Source of the DNA: a virus
IMG/VR virus record: IMGVR_UViG_3300033571_009404
Location: 62,001-126,000 of that record
Reading direction: 5' to 3' (one strand)
Length of the DNA stretch: 64,000 bases
The position numbers and the translations under genes were made by a program. Shown piece after piece: positions 20,642 through 62,549 of this stretch (position 1 is its first letter; every line of letters starts with the position of its first letter). Under the pieces are notes generated by a model. The model searched no databases, was not told where the DNA came from, and worked only from the letters and a program-made list of their open reading frames with translations.

Positions 20642-21709
20642 ATGACAGTTTTGTCTGACAAGGAAATTCGCGCACTGTGTGAGAAACCGGTGGCTTCTTA
20701 CATGTTCATGCGCGATGTCACCAAGCGTAAGACGCACCTGCCACGTCGCAGCGAAGTTCGTCACCTCTATGGCAATCTGTCCATTGATGAGCAGAACGAC
20801 ATCATCATGGAACAGAAGAACAAAGAGGAATGGGATCAACATGTGTTCGTGGGTCCCAATGAAAACTTCCTGCCGATGATCGATCCATACGAACCTGGTC
20901 AAGTCCGTGCTGTCAAGCCGTCTTTGAAGGACTTCGACATCGACAGGCAACTGGACTACATCTACGAGGTCGTGGAATGGGTCAAGAAGATCACCGGGTT
21001 CGATGTAGTTGGTAAACTGCATGGCAACCGTCACAACATCGCGCGCGTCAATGAGGTGATGGACCTAAGCAATTCGGACATGGATAAGCTCCAGTTCTCG
21101 TTGGATCGCATCGGCGATGTTGCCAAGAATGCATTCCGTCGTGCAGACGGTGTATACCGTAATGTGCAGGAATTCGTCGATTACATCTGGGATAATGTAA
21201 TTCCTCAAGATTACTTCGAAGACAACATCGCCAACTACAGGAAGATCGTGTCTTACGGTACTTCTTCCTACGGCTATGACGTGCGTTGCGCCAATGAGTT
21301 CAAGATCTTCACCAACGTGAACTCGACCATCATCGACCCCAAGAACTTCGATGAGAAATCCTTCGTGGACTTCAAGGGCGATGTCTGTATCATTCCACCG
21401 AACTCGTTCGCACTGGCTCGCACAGTTGAACACTTCCGCATTCCGCGTGATGTGATCACCGTGTGCCTGGGTAAATCCACTTATGCCCGTTGCGGTATCA
21501 TCGTCAACGTCACCCCCTTCGAACCTGAATGGGAAGGCTATGTGACTCTGGAGTTCTCCAACACCACTCCGCTGCCTGCCAAGATCTACGCCAACGAAGG
21601 TTGTGCGCAGGTGCTGTTCTTGCAAGGCAATCAACCACCGGCTGTGTCGTATGCAGATCGCAAAGGTAAGTACCAAAAGCAATCTGGCGTCGTCACTCCC
21701 CGCATCTAA
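20642..21709 (+). CDS. dcd: dCTP deaminase with two insertions
   Basis: A 355-residue protein, nearly twice the usual ~190. Family blocks in order are '[12 protein letters not shown]' (4-15), '[11 protein letters not shown]' (79-89), '[13 protein letters not shown]' (203-215), '[10 protein letters not shown]', '[32 protein letters not shown]' (276-307) and the terminal 'SGVVTPRI'. S279, R283 and E304 match catalytic positions of bacterial Dcd. The enzyme converts dCTP to dUTP (and in bifunctional forms on to dUMP), feeding thymidylate synthesis. About 60 residues are inserted between the first two blocks and about 110, mostly helical, between the second and third. C/G-ending codons suggest good expression. 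Confidence 0.9.
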
Positions 21710-21717
21710 GGAAAGCT

Positions 21718-22122
21718 ATGTCTAATAACAGTGAAAGCACTTTCGTCATCGATCAAGCAGTGCAACTGAAGTCTGGTGGTCCCAAGATGACGGTTTACGA
21801 AGTCTCTCTGGACAATGATCAGAAAGAAGTTGTACTGTGCCGGTGGCTGGACGACAACGGTGAGAAGGTCGCCGATATGTTCTACCCTGCAACGCTGCAG
21901 GTCTATGACAAGGCGAAAGACACGACCTTGATCAATGGCCATCCCAAGTTCGCTATTGCTCGTTTGGTCGTGGATGTCGTCTACGAAGTCAATGGTGTTG
22001 AAACGGCCGAACTGGGTGCGATGTTGATTCACCATGCCAATCGTGCACGTGAGGAAGGTCTTCTGACTGGCAGTACCGATGCTGAAGTCCTGCGTTTCAA
22101 AGCAGAGGTTACTGTTTCTTGA
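21718..22122 (+). CDS. Hypothetical protein
   Basis: A 134-residue protein 8 nt after dcd (ribosome site AAGGAAAGCT). 'QAVQLKSGGPKMTVYEV...VVLCRWLDDNGEKVADMFYPATLQVY' resembles the small beta-barrel of the YodC/DUF2158 type, in which an N-terminal '[V/L]-x-L-x-S-G-G-P-x-M-T-V' segment is followed by 'V-x-C-x-W'. The second half is a separate alpha/beta region. Role unknown. Confidence 0.7.
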   Translation: MSNNSESTFVIDQAVQLKSGGPKMTVYEVSLDNDQKEVVLCRWLDDNGEKVADMFYPATLQVYDKAKDTTLINGHPKFAIARLVVDVVYEVNGVETAELGAMLIHHANRAREEGLLTGSTDAEVLRFKAEVTVS

Positions 22123-22123
22123 C

Positions 22124-22600
22124 ATGACTGATAAAACCATTTATCGTGAATCGGCCAAAGCTGTTAATCGTGGGTATGCAGCTGTAGCGCTCTTTAATCC
22201 AAAGAATCGCGATAACGTGGGTTCTGCACTACGAGCAGTGGGTTGCTATGATGCAGCTATGCTCGTAGTGCAGGGTAAGCGTTATGTGCGAAGTGTTCTG
22301 GATGTGAATGATCAGTGGAAGCACACTCCGTTGATCATGACTGAGAATGTCATGGATAATATCCCTCATGGATGTGTTCCTGTAGCAATTGAATTCGTAG
22401 ATACAGCCAAGTCATTGGTTGACTACGTCCATCCTGAACGTGCTTACTATATCTTTGGACCTGAAGACGGTTCTATCCCTAAAGAGGTCATGAAACTGTG
22501 CCGTGATGTAGTTTATGTTCCCACGTCGTTGTGCATGAATCTGGCCGCCACAGTCAATGTGGTGCTTTATGACCGTTTATCTAAAATGAAGAAGAAATAA
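22124..22600 (+). CDS. TrmH/TrmL-type (SPOUT) RNA methyltransferase
   Basis: A 158-residue protein with the three SpoU motifs: 'NPKNRDNVGSALRA' (25-38), 'FGPEDGSIP' (111-119) and 'VPTSLCMNLAATVNVVLYD' (132-150). It methylates RNA, probably the 2'-O of a ribose in tRNA, using S-adenosylmethionine bound in the trefoil knot. The length matches single-domain TrmL (tRNA Cm34/Um34 methyltransferase), which acts on tRNA-Leu in E. coli; the phage also encodes a tRNA-Leu(UAA). Motif 3 has C in place of a more usual small residue. ATG 22124 lies just after the preceding stop; upstream in-frame codons belong to that gene. Confidence 0.87.
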   Translation: MTDKTIYRESAKAVNRGYAAVALFNPKNRDNVGSALRAVGCYDAAMLVVQGKRYVRSVLDVNDQWKHTPLIMTENVMDNIPHGCVPVAIEFVDTAKSLVDYVHPERAYYIFGPEDGSIPKEVMKLCRDVVYVPTSLCMNLAATVNVVLYDRLSKMKKK

Positions 22601-23873: not shown

Positions 23874-24545
23874 ATGACTACCATCCTCTACCACAAAGGT
23901 ATCCTGCTGGCTGACTCCCGTACCACGACACGTTCTCGTACTGGCGATGAACCTGAATGCGTCAAGTGCGGTCATTCCGGTGCTCGCAAGTCTGATGATA
24001 CAACGAAACTCCATATCGGCGACTTCAAAAGCAATAAATTCCGTGGTGATCCTATCCTTGCAGTTGGTCAGGTCGGTAAGATAACAGTAGCCATGGGTCT
24101 TTTGCGCATACTGCGCGCAGGTGAAGACCTCGAAGCCTATATTCGCATGGCTTCCATTGCAAAGCACCACCATCACATCACCTTCGGTTCCGGTGGTCTG
24201 GTTATTGTAGGTGAAAAGAAAGTTTACCACGTCAAGATGTTAAATGCTGACGAAGGTAACTTCAAGAATTCCTTTGATGTGAAGGAAGTCTCGCGCGCTG
24301 ACACGCTGGCCGTGGGTAGTGGGGGTGACTATGCCATGGGTTATCTGAAAGCCATCGATGATCCATGGAGTGCTCTGCAAGCTGCAATTGAACTGGATCC
24401 GTCCACTGGTGGTTTGATTCGCTTTATCGATTTCAAAGAAGACAATCTGCGCATTCAGGCATGTGAAGTCAGTAAGATGCCTGACATCAAACTTACTGCA
24501 CTCGCTATCATTGAAATGAAAGATACCAAGAAAGTAGAATCTTGA
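23874..24545 (+). CDS. HslV/proteasome-like Ntn-hydrolase, copy 1
   Basis: A 223-residue protein starting M-T-T-I-L-Y-H-K-G, so that removal of Met would expose an N-terminal Thr as in HslV and proteasome beta subunits. D14 ('LLADSR') and K45 ('TTKLHIGD') sit where the catalytic Asp17 and Lys33 are expected. 'DPILAVGQVGKI' matches the 'K-V-I-A-G-F-A-G' strand, and 'VGSGGDYAMGYLKA' matches HslV 'I-G-S-G-G-x-Y-A-x-A-A-A-x-A'. Between Asp and Lys there is an insertion with C29-x2-C32, absent from ordinary HslV. A paralogue is at 27039. No ATPase partner (HslU type) is seen here. Protease activity is unproven. Confidence 0.78.
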   Translation: MTTILYHKGILLADSRTTTRSRTGDEPECVKCGHSGARKSDDTTKLHIGDFKSNKFRGDPILAVGQVGKITVAMGLLRILRAGEDLEAYIRMASIAKHHHHITFGSGGLVIVGEKKVYHVKMLNADEGNFKNSFDVKEVSRADTLAVGSGGDYAMGYLKAIDDPWSALQAAIELDPSTGGLIRFIDFKEDNLRIQACEVSKMPDIKLTALAIIEMKDTKKVES

Positions 24546-24579
24546 GACTGAATTACTGCCTCTAATACAAGGAAAGATT

Positions 24580-25317
24580 ATGTTGAAACCGAAATTCGGA
24601 TTGGATAACCCAGTCCTTGCCCAAAGTGTGCTTGCTCTGGGCATTGCAGCGCAAATCGCTTTGTCCCATAATGACAAAGCTCGTAGTTTGCAGTACTACG
24701 AAGAAATGAAACGTCTCTTGGATGGAAATGTCCCTCCCAGCGATCAAGCTGAACTGCCTTTGGATAACGTCGAGTTGGATCGTCTTTCGACACTTGCCCA
24801 AATGTCGCTGGACTACGCTAACAAAAGCAAGCGGGTCAGTGATCGAGCACTGACGGCTACGGTTATCAATACCCTGAAAGATAACGGCTACCCCAACGTC
24901 GGTAGTTTGATGATGGCGCGTGAACGTGATCTGAAACGTTTGGACGGTATCGGGTCGTCCAAGTATCACGACATCGTTCTCTTCATGAATAGCCTGGGTG
25001 TAAGGATCGGTCAACGGTTGCCAAAAGTGAAGTTGACCAAAGAACAACGGATGTATTGGATGTTCCATCCGATTGGTGAATTCCACGATGTCTATAACCG
25101 GAATTATCGCACCTACTCCACATCCATCCCACCACTCGATACCCGTGCACTGAACTGCTTGCGTGCTGCGGAAATCGAGACCATGGGCCAACTGGTTTCT
25201 AAATCTGAAGAAGATCTGGAAAAGCTGGTGAACCTGGGTCGCGAGTCCGTGAACAAGATCGTTCATTGGTTGGGTGAAGCTGGCCTGTTCCTGAATACCG
25301 ACATCGAAGCAGTCTAG
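24580..25317 (+). CDS. Protein with C-terminal RNA polymerase alpha-CTD-like domain
   Basis: A 245-residue protein. Residues ~183-240 ('PPLDTRALNCLRAAEI', 'MGQLVSKSEEDLEKLVNLG', 'ESVNKIVHWLGEAGLFL') align without gaps to the alpha C-terminal domain of bacterial RpoA. R189, N192, N218, G220 and S223 match E. coli R265, N268, N294, G296 and S299, which contact UP-element DNA and activators; K298 is replaced by E222. Residues ~86-145 ('SDRALTATVINTLKDNGYPNVGSL...LDGIGSSKYHDI') look like a second, diverged copy of the same helix-hairpin-helix fold. The N-terminal ~80 residues are helical. It probably binds DNA and/or host transcription factors and could redirect host RNA polymerase; that role is inferred. 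Confidence 0.82.
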   Translation: MLKPKFGLDNPVLAQSVLALGIAAQIALSHNDKARSLQYYEEMKRLLDGNVPPSDQAELPLDNVELDRLSTLAQMSLDYANKSKRVSDRALTATVINTLKDNGYPNVGSLMMARERDLKRLDGIGSSKYHDIVLFMNSLGVRIGQRLPKVKLTKEQRMYWMFHPIGEFHDVYNRNYRTYSTSIPPLDTRALNCLRAAEIETMGQLVSKSEEDLEKLVNLGRESVNKIVHWLGEAGLFLNTDIEAV

Positions 25318-25324
25318 GAGATAT

Positions 25325-25843
25325 ATGCATCCCATCACATCTAAACGAGTTGATCGCTTGATAGCGATTGCTCAAGTCCGCGCTACACAAGCCAGTGTAT
25401 TTACTGTTTCTCACCCGCAACTGGAGAACAATGCTTACATGAAGCTAAATGAGAAGCGAACCGGCTACATGAACATGGCGGATCAGGCATTGAAAGATGC
25501 TCAATACTTGCTGTCGGGTAATGTGGACAAATTCACCATCGAAGAAATCAAGAACCTTCCTCTCAACGGCATCCACAAACGTCTGCGAGATCATTTCGGT
25601 GTGGAAATGGTTGCATACATCTACGACAATCAGTATCCAGAGAAACTTTATTTCAATGGTTACGAAACTGTCGGTTCCATACTCGGTAGCGACTTCGAAA
25701 TCCGCATATCTCATCGCTGCCCTGCGTTCAGAGACATGAGTGAAGCACGCTCCGCCATGGAGAAACTCACAACCATGTTCTTAGCTATCGAACAGGCTTT
25801 CGGTGTCTGGTTGCCAGAATGGAAGCCTGTTTCCTCAGGGTAA
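25325..25843 (+). CDS. Hypothetical protein
   Basis: A 172-residue helical protein 7 nt after the alpha-CTD-like gene (AGGAGATAT ribosome site), so probably functionally linked. A part near residues 75-120 ('IKNLPLNGIHKRLRDHFGVEMVAYIYDNQ...GYETVGSIL') could be another heavily diverged helix-hairpin-helix segment, but I would not insist. No function recognised. Confidence 0.77.
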   Translation: MHPITSKRVDRLIAIAQVRATQASVFTVSHPQLENNAYMKLNEKRTGYMNMADQALKDAQYLLSGNVDKFTIEEIKNLPLNGIHKRLRDHFGVEMVAYIYDNQYPEKLYFNGYETVGSILGSDFEIRISHRCPAFRDMSEARSAMEKLTTMFLAIEQAFGVWLPEWKPVSSG

Positions 25844-25846
25844 CAT

Positions 25847-25913
25847 CCTCAGTTGGTTAATTTTATGCGGAGCAGAGATTATCTGTAAAGCATAACCCAT
25901 TAACCAACTGAGG
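25847..25913. promoter_or_regulatory. Long inverted repeat between genes
   Basis: CCTCAGTTGGTTAAT (25847-25861) pairs perfectly over 15 bp with ATTAACCAACTGAGG (25899-25913), with inner TTATGC (25863-25868)/GCATAA (25890-25895). There is no T run after it, and ATTAACC leads directly to the next ATG. It may work as a terminator, an RNA-processing site or an operator. Confidence 0.65.
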
Positions 25914-25921
25914 CATTAACC

Positions 25922-26200
25922 ATGGCAGCTGCACAAGAAATTGAATTCAAGAAGAATGATCGCGTCAAACTGGACAAGATCGATTCTGAGAATGTCTTCT
26001 ACAAGAACCTCTTCGGGGTGTTCTTCGAGAGTAAGATGAAAGAACTGAAATCGTTCATGACGACTGTAGGGGTCGTTCTGGGCACGGGTGAGTTTAATCT
26101 CGGCGACGTTGCCGAGCAAGTCGTGACAGCTGAATTCAAGAAGGACGGTCAGTCCTACTACCTGAATCTGCCTGCTTCCGACTTGGCTGCCGTGGTTTAA
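25922..26200 (+). CDS. Hypothetical protein
   Basis: A 92-residue protein directly after a long inverted repeat. Its ribosome site is GAGGCATTAACC, the 3' arm of that repeat, so folding of the repeat could hide it. The protein is basic at the N-terminus and ends in a strand-turn-strand pattern (EFKKDGQSYYLNLPASDL). Its stop overlaps the next start (TAATG). Confidence 0.76.
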   Translation: MAAAQEIEFKKNDRVKLDKIDSENVFYKNLFGVFFESKMKELKSFMTTVGVVLGTGEFNLGDVAEQVVTAEFKKDGQSYYLNLPASDLAAVV

Positions 26201-26457
26201 TGGAAAGAGTAGCAGTAATCTACCGCAGGATGCATGGGTATGATCCCGTGCCTTCTGCGGTAATTACACTACCTGATAGTGAGATCATCACCGACGAGGA
26301 TGCGTATTTTACCCGGCGCATGCAAGAGGTGTCACAGCGTTTCTTTGATCGCTATGGGTACGATAATGTCGTTTGGTATTACAAGATTCGTGATCTTGAA
26401 GCTGAACGCAAACAACGGTCGTTCTTAGTGAGAGCTAAGAAGTTGTTTAAGAAATAA
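26200..26457 (+). CDS. Hypothetical protein
   Basis: An 85-residue protein coupled to the preceding gene by TAATG. The C-terminus is strongly basic (EAERKQRSFLVRAKKLFKK), the rest mixed. No family recognised. Confidence 0.74.
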   Translation: MERVAVIYRRMHGYDPVPSAVITLPDSEIITDEDAYFTRRMQEVSQRFFDRYGYDNVVWYYKIRDLEAERKQRSFLVRAKKLFKK

Positions 26458-26480
26458 TCATTCTAATCAAAGGAGTAGTT

Positions 26481-27020
26481 ATGAGTAATGAAGTCCCCAA
26501 GAAAGTGCCGAAGTTGTCGAAGGGTCTGACCAAGACCGTGACCAATAAACCGGTCTATGAGCCTGGTAAGGGTCTTAAGAAGAGTGCCAAGGGCAAGAGC
26601 ACCGGTGGAGTCGTACATCGGACACTCCCGATGGAAACCAGGAATGCACTCCTGGACGAGCATACCAAGGTCAACCCCACTGATGCAGAAGTCCAGCAAT
26701 GTGCTGATGAGCGTGCATTCATGTCGCAAAGTCAAGTGGGGGAACGTCAATACAACATGACCGGCTACCTGATTCGTCAGGTCAAAAACATGAGGCCATC
26801 GGTCGTTCACACCTACCGTGTACATGGTGTAACGACTTCGACCAATGACAAGGTCGTAAAAGCACTGCATGCACATCTGCAGAAGATGACCAATTCGATC
26901 CATACAGCGTTGCGTATGTACTTGCCTGAACTCCAGGATGGTGAAACCACATACACCGCAATCGTCAGTGAAGATAGCAACGTCGTTACCATCGACGCCA
27001 AAGATCTGATCGACCTCTAA
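26481..27020 (+). CDS. Hypothetical protein with basic N-terminal tail
   Basis: A 179-residue protein. The first ~45 residues are Lys/Gly/Pro-rich and probably disordered (VPKKVPKLSKGLTKTV...), typical of nucleic-acid-binding tails. The rest is a mixed alpha/beta domain (YNMTGYLIRQVKNMRPSVVH). Ribosome site AAAGGAGTAGTT. Upstream neighbour of the second HslV-like gene. Function unknown. Confidence 0.77.
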   Translation: MSNEVPKKVPKLSKGLTKTVTNKPVYEPGKGLKKSAKGKSTGGVVHRTLPMETRNALLDEHTKVNPTDAEVQQCADERAFMSQSQVGERQYNMTGYLIRQVKNMRPSVVHTYRVHGVTTSTNDKVVKALHAHLQKMTNSIHTALRMYLPELQDGETTYTAIVSEDSNVVTIDAKDLIDL

Positions 27021-27038
27021 TCACCTACAAGGAACATA

Positions 27039-27662
27039 ATGACAACTATTGTCTACCATGATGGTGTAATGGCGTGTGATCGCAGGGTTACTCTGGTCGG
27101 AGTAGCCAAAGGCGATCGCACTGTCTGTAATAGCTGCGGTGACCATACCCCTATCATCGAACAGACTGACGAGAAGATCGTCCTGTTTGACAGCGATTCG
27201 ACATCTACGTTCATGAATGAAGAAGTTGTTGCTGTAGGGATGTCTGGTAACATGCATCTGGGTCAGCGGTTAATCACATCGCTGAAGAAAGGTCGGGACA
27301 TTGAAGTAATGATCGATGATTACTACTTCCTTAACCCGACTGCATTGCCGTCCACCTTCCTTCTGATTGTAACGAAGGAACATGCTTATACCTTCGAGGT
27401 ACAAAGCGATGGTACTGATATCCACCGGTTTTCATTGAAAGACGCGGTGGTCATTGGTAAAGGTGGTATGGCAGCAATGACAGCCATCAAGTTCATGAAT
27501 GCTGACCCTGTGTCGGCAATCGTGGTGGCTTCCGAAATTGACCTCTATACGGGTAATGGAATCATGAAAGTTAACTTACGTGATCCCAATCCAAAAATAA
27601 AAAGAGTCACCCCTGAAGAGGTTATGCAACTCTCTCAAGGAAATAACGATGAAGTTAGTTGA
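27039..27662 (+). CDS. HslV/proteasome-like Ntn-hydrolase, copy 2
   Basis: A 207-residue paralogue of the protein at 23874. It begins M-T-T-I-V-Y-H-D-G, has D14 ('MACDRRVT'), C30-x2-C33 in the insertion, K46 ('DEKIVLFD'), 'EEVVAVGMSGN' and 'IGKGGMAAMTAIKF', each matching the same element of the first copy and of HslV. With Met removed, Thr2 would be the nucleophile. The region before Asp is ~4 residues shorter than in HslV. Whether the two phage proteins form mixed rings, act alone or poison the host HslVU is open. It overlaps the next gene by 14 nt. Confidence 0.78.
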   Translation: MTTIVYHDGVMACDRRVTLVGVAKGDRTVCNSCGDHTPIIEQTDEKIVLFDSDSTSTFMNEEVVAVGMSGNMHLGQRLITSLKKGRDIEVMIDDYYFLNPTALPSTFLLIVTKEHAYTFEVQSDGTDIHRFSLKDAVVIGKGGMAAMTAIKFMNADPVSAIVVASEIDLYTGNGIMKVNLRDPNPKIKRVTPEEVMQLSQGNNDEVS

Positions 27663-38998: not shown

Positions 38999-39805
38999 AT
39001 GGTTGCTAGAAATCAAAGAATGGATCTTCCGGAGTCTGGTACGAATGGTGTATATCGAATCATTCTTTCGAGTGGTTATTTCTACATTGGTAGTTCCAGT
39101 AATATTCGTAGCCGTATTATCCATCATCTTGCTATGCTACGTGACAATCAGCATTTTAATAAGAAACTACAAGAACAGTTTAATTTACAAAACGAATACT
39201 CGATAACGTATTTCGTATCCAATGATCGTAATTCTGCGTATCGTGAAGAGATGAATGAAATCGGTAATAATCTTGATAACTATTTCATGTGTAATGAGAT
39301 TTCTGATCATCGTCCGTTATGGGATCTCGGTCATAGTGACCAAGCTAATGAAAAACGTAATGCTACTGTTAGATCCGTTGAGTTTGTTGAAGCTAGGTCT
39401 AAAGGAACCAAGAATCAATGGGAAAATACGAATCTACGTGAGAAACGTATGGTTCATTTGAGTAAGCCGGAAGTACGTGCTCAGTTAATTAAAAATCTAA
39501 CATCACTTGAATCCAGAGCTAAGAGTAAAGCGATTCTCAATAGCCCTGAAACTAAAGCTAAAGCTAGTGCATCTAAAAAGAAAATGTGGGAAGATCCCAG
39601 TTATAGAGAAAAAGTCTTAACAGCTAGAGCCTCCCCTGAAGCATTGGCTAAACGCGCAGCTAAATCTAAGCCAGTAATCGTAAATGGTGTGGAGTATCAG
39701 AGCACTAGAATCGCATGTGAAACTCTGAACTTGAATATCAGTACGTTACAAAGTAAGTTAGCGAAAGGTACTGACCCCAATGTTCAATATAAACCAAGGG
39801 AGTGA
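38999..39805 (+). CDS. Free-standing GIY-YIG homing endonuclease
   Basis: A 268-residue protein. 'NGVYRIILSSGYFYIGSSSNIRSRIIHHL' (16-44) is a GIY-YIG nuclease core: G-V-Y, Y-I-G, catalytic R (37/39) and H43, then 'NKKLQ' as usual. Residues ~140-215 hold repeated K/A/S-rich segments of the NUMOD3 type ('SPETKAKASASKKKMWEDPSYREK'), and the end ('VNGVEYQSTRIACETLNLNISTLQSKL') is a NUMOD1/helix-turn-helix DNA-binding piece. The gene is clearly more A/T-rich than its neighbours, as expected for a mobile element. It is not inside an intron; its target may be a nearby gene in related phages. Confidence 0.9.
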   Translation: MVARNQRMDLPESGTNGVYRIILSSGYFYIGSSSNIRSRIIHHLAMLRDNQHFNKKLQEQFNLQNEYSITYFVSNDRNSAYREEMNEIGNNLDNYFMCNEISDHRPLWDLGHSDQANEKRNATVRSVEFVEARSKGTKNQWENTNLREKRMVHLSKPEVRAQLIKNLTSLESRAKSKAILNSPETKAKASASKKKMWEDPSYREKVLTARASPEALAKRAAKSKPVIVNGVEYQSTRIACETLNLNISTLQSKLAKGTDPNVQYKPRE

Positions 39806-60269: not shown

Positions 60270-62549
60270 ATGTCAGTGTCTAACTACTTTGACATCTATC
60301 GAGAGTTAGTATTTCAGTTAGCGTCGACTATCGTCGTAAAATCCACTGAAACCGCAGCACTCAATAACAAATGGGTAGCCGCGCATGGTTATGCAGTGGA
60401 TGAGACAGATCCAACGACGTGGAAATACTATTTGAATATCTGTGGCAGGTACCATGCATCGGATACAATGATGCGGGTCAAGTCCATGGATACTCTCGAA
60501 GAGATTGACTTTACCATTGAGAACTTGGTAATTCACCGAGCTACTGCCCGTGGTTATGCTTACGGTACGCGTGGCTATAGTGAATTGGTCACGCTCTATC
60601 CGAAACAAGAACGCCTAATCAAAGGCATTCTGTTCCCGGCAGACATGAGTGAAGCCATTGCCGGTGACAATGGTAAAATCCTCTCCTATGCGCCTGGCTC
60701 TGTGGAAGATCAAGAGCGTAGCCTCATAGATAAACTGCAAAAATGGATTTATAACTGGCATGCTATTAATATCAACCCGAACTACGCTTACGTAGACGAG
60801 TTGTATTTACCCGTGCTGTTAGGCATGATGTACCAGCACATGGTGCCTGCCATCTTCAACTTCCGTTTAGAAGCATGCAAGACCATCGAAGCTCACAGCT
60901 TCCATATTCAGCAGTATTTGGCATCCCATGGCGGACTAGATTCGTACATGGGAAACATGACGCTGAATCAGAAGTTATACTTCTACCGCAACATCGCCTA
61001 TCTTGAACGCAACAGCGGCAAGAGTGAGATCTTCGACACGTTAGTCGAGCATACAATGACACAGCGTAATCTGCCAATTGCAGAATACACGATGAAGCAT
61101 GATGTCAGTAATCAGCCGGATAGTTTCTATCCGACCCCAACCTTCAGAATGAAGGCGCTGAATATCCAGACAACAGCTGCTGTGCCTGAAACCATTGACT
61201 TAGATACCATGCTATCCAAAGAGCAGTTACTTGCTCGCGATAACATCGAGTATCAGGCTGATGCGTTAGAATCGATTAATGAAGAACTGATCAATGCACC
61301 GTCGAACGTAGAACTGACTAAGGCGTTGGAGTCCGCAATGGTGGACTATACCAACTCGACACCGTACACCATGGAAGACATCTTGTTGAACCATTGGTTA
61401 CTGTGGGCCAGTTCTGGTAAGTATCGTGCTTACATCTCCTTTGATGATCCTGTTACTGGAGATCCGATTCAGTTGATTGCTAAAGATGCGTTTACCTTCA
61501 TGTGGTATTCGTTCTGCGCATCGATTGGATTTAAGCCGGACTACGTTCCTCTTCTGGTAGCATGGCGGGTACAACGTGATCCGTTACCGTCTATTGACGA
61601 CTTGATGTCTGTGGTACCAAGTAGCTTTAGCCGTAACTGGGCAACCCTCGCTATTCAGAACCAGCCTGTCATTGGGCAGATCATCTCCACAGAAGACTTT
61701 TGGAATACTTGTAAAGAAGTGTTCGTCGCAGCTAATCAGCAACGTCGATTAATTGCGTATCAAGAGACTTTCATGGATCGCGGTTACATGCATAACTTGG
61801 TGTCTCGTATCTATTCAGATACGGTTTGCCGAGTCGAGCCTGATAACACCACTTACGATCAATGGTTCAAAGACCACAACATCAACATCTCTGACTTCAC
61901 CCAAGATCAGTTAGGTCAGGTCTACGTCAACATCGTTAAAGCTGCAACAGGTGCAAACCTGGTGACAACGAATTCGGTACGTAATCTCCAGAAGGCAATG
62001 GTCAGCATGATGACTAAGCTCTCTAGTTATTCCGTGCAGTTCATGTCGCTGATTAACGATAGTGACTTGCGTCCTATTGACTTACCTGTCATTCGACCCG
62101 ATAACATGACCGGGAAGGGTGCGGAGCTGATTCAAGCTGAAGTCATTGTTGCTAATGTCAATCACGAACGCAGTGTTTTAAAACATCACATCTGGACCGG
62201 CTTGAACTGGCCTAATGTAGATAGTGATTTCCAATCGACTCAGCATCATCATTTAAAAGTCGATATCCCAGTACGTGCAATGGGAGATCGCCCTGTTACC
62301 GTTAAACGCATTCGTGTGGAATCTGCACGTATTCGTGCTCGCTACGCAGGTCCTCCATTAACGCTGAATGATCGTGACATCATTCCAGTACCGGGGATTA
62401 AAGAATATCTGGACTTACCTATTGCCGATAGTCAACGATTCAAAGATCGCAATGGGAACTTCTGGTTCTACTCTGTCCCGCAGAAGAGGAACTTGGCAGA
62501 AGCAATTGCCAACAACGTTCTGAACGGTATTAACTGGATTCCGATGTGA
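60270..62549 (+). CDS. Probable virion structural protein
   Basis: A 759-residue protein divergent from the portal gene; GAAAGGTGTTTTGAT precedes the ATG. Mainly helical with many Tyr/Met/Trp residues and no enzyme motif ('DIYRELVFQLASTIV', 'NWHAININPNYAYVDELYLPVLLGMMYQHM', 'TPYTMEDILLNHWLLWASSGKYRAYISF'). Size and neighbours suggest a tail or neck component of the phiKZ group. A terminator lies beyond the stop. Confidence 0.76.
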   Translation: MSVSNYFDIYRELVFQLASTIVVKSTETAALNNKWVAAHGYAVDETDPTTWKYYLNICGRYHASDTMMRVKSMDTLEEIDFTIENLVIHRATARGYAYGTRGYSELVTLYPKQERLIKGILFPADMSEAIAGDNGKILSYAPGSVEDQERSLIDKLQKWIYNWHAININPNYAYVDELYLPVLLGMMYQHMVPAIFNFRLEACKTIEAHSFHIQQYLASHGGLDSYMGNMTLNQKLYFYRNIAYLERNSGKSEIFDTLVEHTMTQRNLPIAEYTMKHDVSNQPDSFYPTPTFRMKALNIQTTAAVPETIDLDTMLSKEQLLARDNIEYQADALESINEELINAPSNVELTKALESAMVDYTNSTPYTMEDILLNHWLLWASSGKYRAYISFDDPVTGDPIQLIAKDAFTFMWYSFCASIGFKPDYVPLLVAWRVQRDPLPSIDDLMSVVPSSFSRNWATLAIQNQPVIGQIISTEDFWNTCKEVFVAANQQRRLIAYQETFMDRGYMHNLVSRIYSDTVCRVEPDNTTYDQWFKDHNINISDFTQDQLGQVYVNIVKAATGANLVTTNSVRNLQKAMVSMMTKLSSYSVQFMSLINDSDLRPIDLPVIRPDNMTGKGAELIQAEVIVANVNHERSVLKHHIWTGLNWPNVDSDFQSTQHHHLKVDIPVRAMGDRPVTVKRIRVESARIRARYAGPPLTLNDRDIIPVPGIKEYLDLPIADSQRFKDRNGNFWFYSVPQKRNLAEAIANNVLNGINWIPM

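Follow-up and report, generated by a model that had tools for sequence, protein, structure and literature searches.

A pair of predicted proteasome-like Ntn-hydrolases with a CxxC insertion in a phiKZ-like jumbo phage

What might two proteasome-like proteins do in a phage whose known sequence offers them no recognizable unfoldase of the HslU/ClpX type? The question is raised by a stretch of 64,000 nucleotides (positions 62,001 to 126,000 of the IMG/VR virus record IMGVR_UViG_3300033571_009404; hereafter the window), in which an initial annotation had noticed two HslV- or proteasome-like N-terminal nucleophile (Ntn) hydrolases with a common CxxC insertion. As it had stated, both genes, here termed P0001 and P0002 (Table 1), are intact open reading frames with products starting MTTI. 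Our analysis of their sequences and predicted structures places both products in the proteasome-like family and in PHROG 1040, and neither is an HslV. The phage proteasome-homolog type itself is already known; what is new is the CxxC loop.

Fold and active site

Both proteins match PHROG 1040 ("peptidase HslV family"), as do all eight of the CxxC proteins described below. The Pfam and NCBIfam models of the proteasome and HslV return no match to either at E<=1, and single-sequence searches of the PDB gave matches at chance level only, with no HslV chain. A profile built from an alignment of 42 phage proteins recovers proteasome beta chains (best E 6.9e-11) and HslV chains (1.3e-9), pairing the phage Thr2, Asp14 and Lys45/46 with Thr1, Asp17 and Lys33 of the proteasome beta subunits; a profile from the CxxC proteins alone (E 0.017) is suggestive only. 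In single-chain AlphaFold2 predictions, P0001 (predicted local distance difference test score, pLDDT, 86.9; predicted template modelling score, pTM, 0.82) and P0002 (pLDDT 88.9; pTM 0.85) align with the 20S proteasome beta subunit (VIA-align: Z 17.8, root-mean-square deviation, rmsd, 2.3 over 161 residues; and Z 17.1, rmsd 2.7 over 164 residues, respectively). The top Foldseek matches are Anbu and proteasome beta, and the closest viral structural match is a protein of phage Noxifer, which also carries the CxxC. Both models have helices H1 and H2 after the oxyanion Gly (residues 70-81 and 86-100 in P0001; 72-84 and 88-98 in P0002).

The two proteins are 27% identical over 198 columns (E 3e-18), and hence paralogues. 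The catalytic Asp and Lys claimed for them are kept as Asp14 and Lys45 or Lys46, and the strands GSGGDYAM and GKGGMAAM fit the proposed G-[SK]-G-G-x-x-A-M pattern. Across the alignment, Thr2, Asp14 and Lys45/46 are invariant (42 of 42 rows), and the equivalents of Gly47 and Asp166 are nearly or fully so, the latter in 41 of the 41 rows reaching that column. As judged from aligned columns, P0001 has a full proteasome-type active site: the predicted nucleophile Thr2 (Thr1 once Met is removed), Asp14, Lys45 and Gly68, with Ser149, Asp175 and Thr178 at the positions of proteasome Ser129, Asp166 and Ser169. P0002 keeps Thr2, Asp14, Lys46, Gly70, Asp168 and Thr171, and has Lys141 at the Ser129-equivalent position, a change seen in no other of the 41 rows that have a residue in that column.

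Taken together, the PHROG matches, the profile search, the conserved active site and the predicted fold support the description of the pair as proteasome-like Ntn-hydrolase paralogues. A fold unlike that of Ntn-hydrolases, or a triad not conserved in relatives, had been named in advance as grounds for abandoning it; the predicted fold and the triad both hold. The designation "HslV-like" stands in its proteasome-like part, whereas its strictly HslV part is weak: the proteasome models of Pfam and NCBIfam do not match, and by structure the pair come closest to proteasome beta and Anbu.

The CxxC insertion, its bearers and their copy number

The insertion, of about 14 residues, lies between the catalytic Asp and Lys, with the CxxC at residues 29-32 of P0001 and 30-33 of P0002, in agreement with the C-x2-C insertion first noticed. 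The Asp-to-Lys segment spans 28-31 residues in eight proteins as against 13-17 in 34 comparison proteins, and the CxxC is present in all eight of the former and in none of the 34 with ordinary spacing. Its two Cys are the only invariant Cys among the eight; there is no invariant His, and the other loop positions vary without evident constraint. With conservation confined to two Cys and no His, we rejected a zinc site whose four ligands would all come from a single chain. Counting the strands predicted for P0001 would place the insertion between the third and the fourth (S3/S4). A degenerate DNA pattern for the insertion, which requires Ala before the Asp and is thus able to match P0001 only and not P0002, has one match in the window, at P0001, and none in 100 shuffles.

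We found at least eight CxxC proteins from at least seven viruses: the window phage (two copies), Noxifer, the Noxifer-like IMG/VR genomes G001 and G002, the records G003 and G004, and a seventh virus seen on three contigs. The relatives share 18-28% identity with P0001 and P0002. Since the scans required an ATG start, and the second also an Ala before the Asp, more members may exist. The first scan also gave temperate-phage proteins, which were set aside: theirs is a CxxC spanning the catalytic Lys (DCDKC, for example) and not the insertion. In bacterial genomes the pattern had 60 matches, none of them a proteasome homolog; single-protein scans of IMG/VR gave no close relatives of P0001 or P0002, and tblastn against phages gave none for P0001 and, for P0002, weak relatives (24-25%) in SPN3US-type Salmonella jumbo phages, some annotated as HslV-family peptidases. 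The family as a whole extends from SPN3US to at least 478 phage records. Within the sequences searched, the CxxC loop is restricted to a jumbo-phage clade.

In a maximum-likelihood tree (columns kept if filled in >=30% of rows, which removed most of the insertion), the CxxC proteins, LucasX_2 and phiKZ 289 form one group (98/95), and within it P0001 and P0002 are sisters (96/83), each other's closest relatives. As phiKZ 289 and LucasX_2 lack the CxxC and sit on long branches, loss of the CxxC or misplacement in the tree is possible. The gene of phiKZ in question (PHIKZ289; L135:1330-2061; NC_004629.1 263329-264060) is annotated without a function and matches PHROG 1040 (E 1.8e-7); its product has Thr2, an Asp and a candidate Lys, and the tag was not found named in the literature searched. 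A separate second set of homologs without CxxC, from G001, Noxifer, LucasX and FLC9 (L308, L054, L049, L137:2301-3278), comes together in the same tree, with the second-group gene about 8-10 kb from the CxxC gene in G001 and Noxifer. No paralogue like Noxifer copy 2 was found in the window phage, where the profile returned P0001 only. In the second copies of G004 (L307, MSLVLYHNG...) and LucasX (L053, MSAIAYDG...) the predicted nucleophile is Ser and not Thr.

Burkholderia phage FLC9 has the closest counterparts of the window phage's major capsid protein (46%) and of a large virion protein (41%), with phiKZ-like phages next. The phiKZ nuclear-shell protein also has a homolog in the record of the window phage (G000:C1:219950-221752, outside the window; 26% identity, E 3.9e-26), because of which the phage is probably nucleus-forming. 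This protein is present in all five CxxC records of near-genome size that were tested (the window's record, G001, G002, G003 and Noxifer); none was found in the 154-kb G004 fragment. Hence, one subfamily of phage proteasome homologs is now tied to nucleus-forming jumbo phages, with Noxifer and the model phage phiKZ (gene 289) as cultured representatives for its study.

That one phage should have two such paralogues without an unfoldase proved to be true but not unusual. No match to AAA_2 (PF07724, HslU/ClpX-type) or AAA (PF00004) was found in the 310-kb record, which is perhaps incomplete, other unfoldase types not having been searched for. The Salmonella jumbo phage pSal-SNUABM-04 was described in 2020 with two HslV genes and no HslU (PMC7823757). 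We confirmed its two copies and found two in Machinavirus Huxley, three in Aeromonas phage 2L372D, two in LucasX, one strong and one weak match in Noxifer, and two to three, some in tandem, on IMG/VR contigs. Thus, "two, without an unfoldase" is a recurring pattern.

A possible mechanism and its alternatives

We advance, as a tentative reading to which we give somewhat less than an even chance, that P0001 and P0002, being divergent PHROG 1040 Ntn-hydrolases duplicated in the phiKZ-like lineage, act as N-terminal-Thr peptidases or acyl-transferases in which the CxxC loop would serve as a lid or as a contact between subunits. Briefly, host methionine aminopeptidase, for which Met-Thr is a normal substrate, would remove Met1 and free the Thr as nucleophile, so that no propeptide would be needed. 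Lys45/46, oriented by Asp14, would deprotonate this Thr in the manner of the proteasome, in whose triad chemistry Ser129 with Asp166 protonates the Thr1 amine (PMC4792962). P0001 would be an active peptidase or acyl-transferase. P0002, with its triad kept, may be altered or weakened, perhaps slowed or specialised, because Lys141 replaces the Ser that protonates the amine together with Asp166, and it may serve as a partner subunit. At S3/S4, next to the active site, the CxxC loop would most likely either share a metal ion with the CxxC of a second subunit or form a disulfide; given two conserved Cys and no His, these are the simplest options chemically, and as such our guess. The resulting lid or subunit contact would limit which polypeptides enter. 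Folded proteins would be less likely targets than specific peptides or unfolded stretches, since the record showed no unfoldase of the phage's own. A putative protease assembly formed by the pair, one of the two roles first suggested for it, is in these terms plausible.

Several points weigh against this scheme: (i) the P0002 model has low confidence at the insertion (pLDDT about 60), where a contact with the active site would thus be a weak prediction; (ii) the S3/S4 placement comes from counting predicted strands and not from superposition; (iii) Lys141 may mean that P0002 is inactive; (iv) the proposed metal or disulfide is conjectured from the two conserved Cys, and the bacterial cytoplasm is reducing; (v) no neighbour gene is conserved between the window and the compared loci of the CxxC relatives, so gene context gives no hint of function or substrate; and (vi) we found no biochemical data on close relatives.

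The alternative that fares best, a minority possibility to be taken seriously, is a hetero-oligomer with division of labour, in which P0001 would be catalytic and P0002 structural or regulatory, like the beta and alpha subunits of the proteasome. The co-occurrence of paralogues in one phage, the complete site of P0001 set beside the unique Lys of P0002, and the drift of second copies elsewhere (Ser1 in LucasX_2 and in G004 copy 2) are all consistent with it. However, P0002 retains its Thr, Asp, Lys, Gly and Asp166 equivalents, and G002 and G003 are single-copy CxxC phages in the records searched; therefore, a pair is not required.

We consider it unlikely that the proteins are connectase-like, that is, sequence-specific ligases or transpeptidases rather than degrading proteases, with the CxxC loop as a substrate-selecting lid. 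The predicted S3/S4 position of the insertion, which in connectase is that of the specificity-determining insert (PMC8665760), and the absence of a detected unfoldase from the record would suit such an activity, but both window models have the H1-H2 that connectase lacks, the insertion is just about 14 residues with no predicted helix, and no ligation motif is known. Connectase is not among the 50 matches listed by the structure searches, which has no bearing on the likeness. It likewise appears improbable that the loop simply tolerates change and that the CxxC insertion is without functional consequence: the members of the clade without CxxC (phiKZ 289 and LucasX_2) and the low-confidence loop model would agree with this, whereas the invariance of both Cys in eight proteins with just 20-28% identity to P0001 and P0002, the remaining loop being free to vary, speaks against it. 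We found no support for, and give very little weight to, the other option of the initial annotation, interference with host HslVU, or its extension to a different proteasome-like protease of the host, whether by joining the host rings or by binding the unfoldase: the common fold family and the lack of a detected unfoldase would allow it, but the single sequences match no HslV chain and have diverged very deeply, the catalytic residues are retained although a pure decoy would not need them, and nothing positive favours it.

The peptidase or acyl-transferase reading can be extended, with a slim chance of being right, to a distinct enzyme subfamily of nucleus-forming phages, in which a CxxC loop next to the active site would control access through a bound metal or a redox change, in an unfoldase-free, self-gated assembly directed at specific proteins of the host or the phage; in the window phage the paralogues would make up a mixed particle. 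If true, a CxxC lid beside the Thr active site would be a new, ATPase-free way of gating a proteasome-type enzyme.

Neighbouring genes and comparison with known systems

Four other genes of the window merit mention (Table 1). The 245-aa protein encoded between P0001 and P0002 has two stretches matching the C-terminal domain of RNA polymerase alpha; it has only weak partial matches in phage records, and no PF03118 was found in eight related jumbo-phage records. It is possibly a phage factor acting on host transcription. Upstream of the pair are a dCTP deaminase-like gene and one for an RNA methyltransferase of a type unusual for a phage, and further downstream is a candidate homing endonuclease.

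Table 1. Features of the window discussed in the text, with the CxxC relatives
Feature	Position	Strand	Remarks
P0001, proteasome-like Ntn-hydrolase, 223 aa	23874..24545	+	PHROG 1040, E 3e-20; AlphaFold2 model
P0001 Asp14-Lys45 segment, 30 residues (usual ~15)	23916..24005	+	insertion between predicted strands 17-19 and 38-40
P0001 CxxC (C29-V-K-C32)	23958..23969	+	
P0002, proteasome-like Ntn-hydrolase, 207 aa	27039..27662	+	PHROG 1040, E 3.1e-21; AlphaFold2 model
P0002 Asp14-Lys46 segment, 31 residues	27081..27173	+	insertion inside; low model confidence
P0002 CxxC (C30-N-S-C33)	27126..27137	+	
dCTP deaminase-like protein	20642..21709	+	phrog_1663, E 1.4e-56; ~185-residue N-terminal extension without a named domain
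SpoU-type RNA methyltransferase	22079..22600	+	PF00588, E 1.2e-13; no PHROG match
245-aa protein between P0001 and P0002	24580..25317	+	PF03118, E 1.8e-18
GIY-YIG homing endonuclease-like, by eye	38999..39805	+	open reading frame start GVYRIILSSGYFYIGSSSNIRSRIIHH
CxxC relatives: Noxifer A0A1Y0SVL6; IMG/VR L188, L177/L296, L279, L281, L282			

Against this background, how do the two proteins stand to the systems already described? In HslV the Ntn-hydrolase fold, the Thr nucleophile, the Asp and Lys and the G-S-G-G motif are the same; in contrast, the record of the window phage has no HslU-type gene, no HslV family model matches, and the Asp-to-Lys spacing is far longer. Thus, the pair differs from HslV in its partner gene and by family models, while use of a host HslU remains compatible with the data. 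Connectase has a like fold and an insertion at S3/S4 beside the active site, which there forms a mobile substrate-selecting lid (PMC8665760). Unlike the window proteins, both of which have helices H1 and H2 in their models, it is an archaeal ligase without these helices (PMC8665760), and its insertion consists of two helices.

Among viruses, Fuchs, Alva and Lupas (2021, PMC8665760) described the phage proteasome homologs PPH ("the first true viral member"), AAH and CPH, without an AAA+ partner and without a function. Although such homologs are widespread, we found no characterised function for them in the literature. The window proteins resemble PPH in being phage-encoded, in the lack of a propeptide, in the Thr/Asp/Lys triad and in having no co-occurring AAA+ partner. 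PPH, however, has about 140 residues and lacks helix H2 (PMC8665760); the window proteins have 207-223 residues, H1 and H2 in their predicted models, a longer segment after the Lys and the CxxC insertion. AAH and CPH, group I proteasome homologs found in some phages with a full catalytic triad (PMC8665760), are alike in group, phage occurrence and triad, a likeness drawn from their description only.

The nearest counterparts are the Noxifer protein and its IMG/VR relatives, which belong to the same PHROG, carry the CxxC at the same site and come mostly from phiKZ-like jumbo phages. The window phage has the CxxC in both copies, in contrast to Noxifer, G001 and G004, where copy two is a distant one and lacks it. 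Hence, P0001 and P0002 represent an as yet unnamed, CxxC-bearing branch of the phage proteasome homologs.

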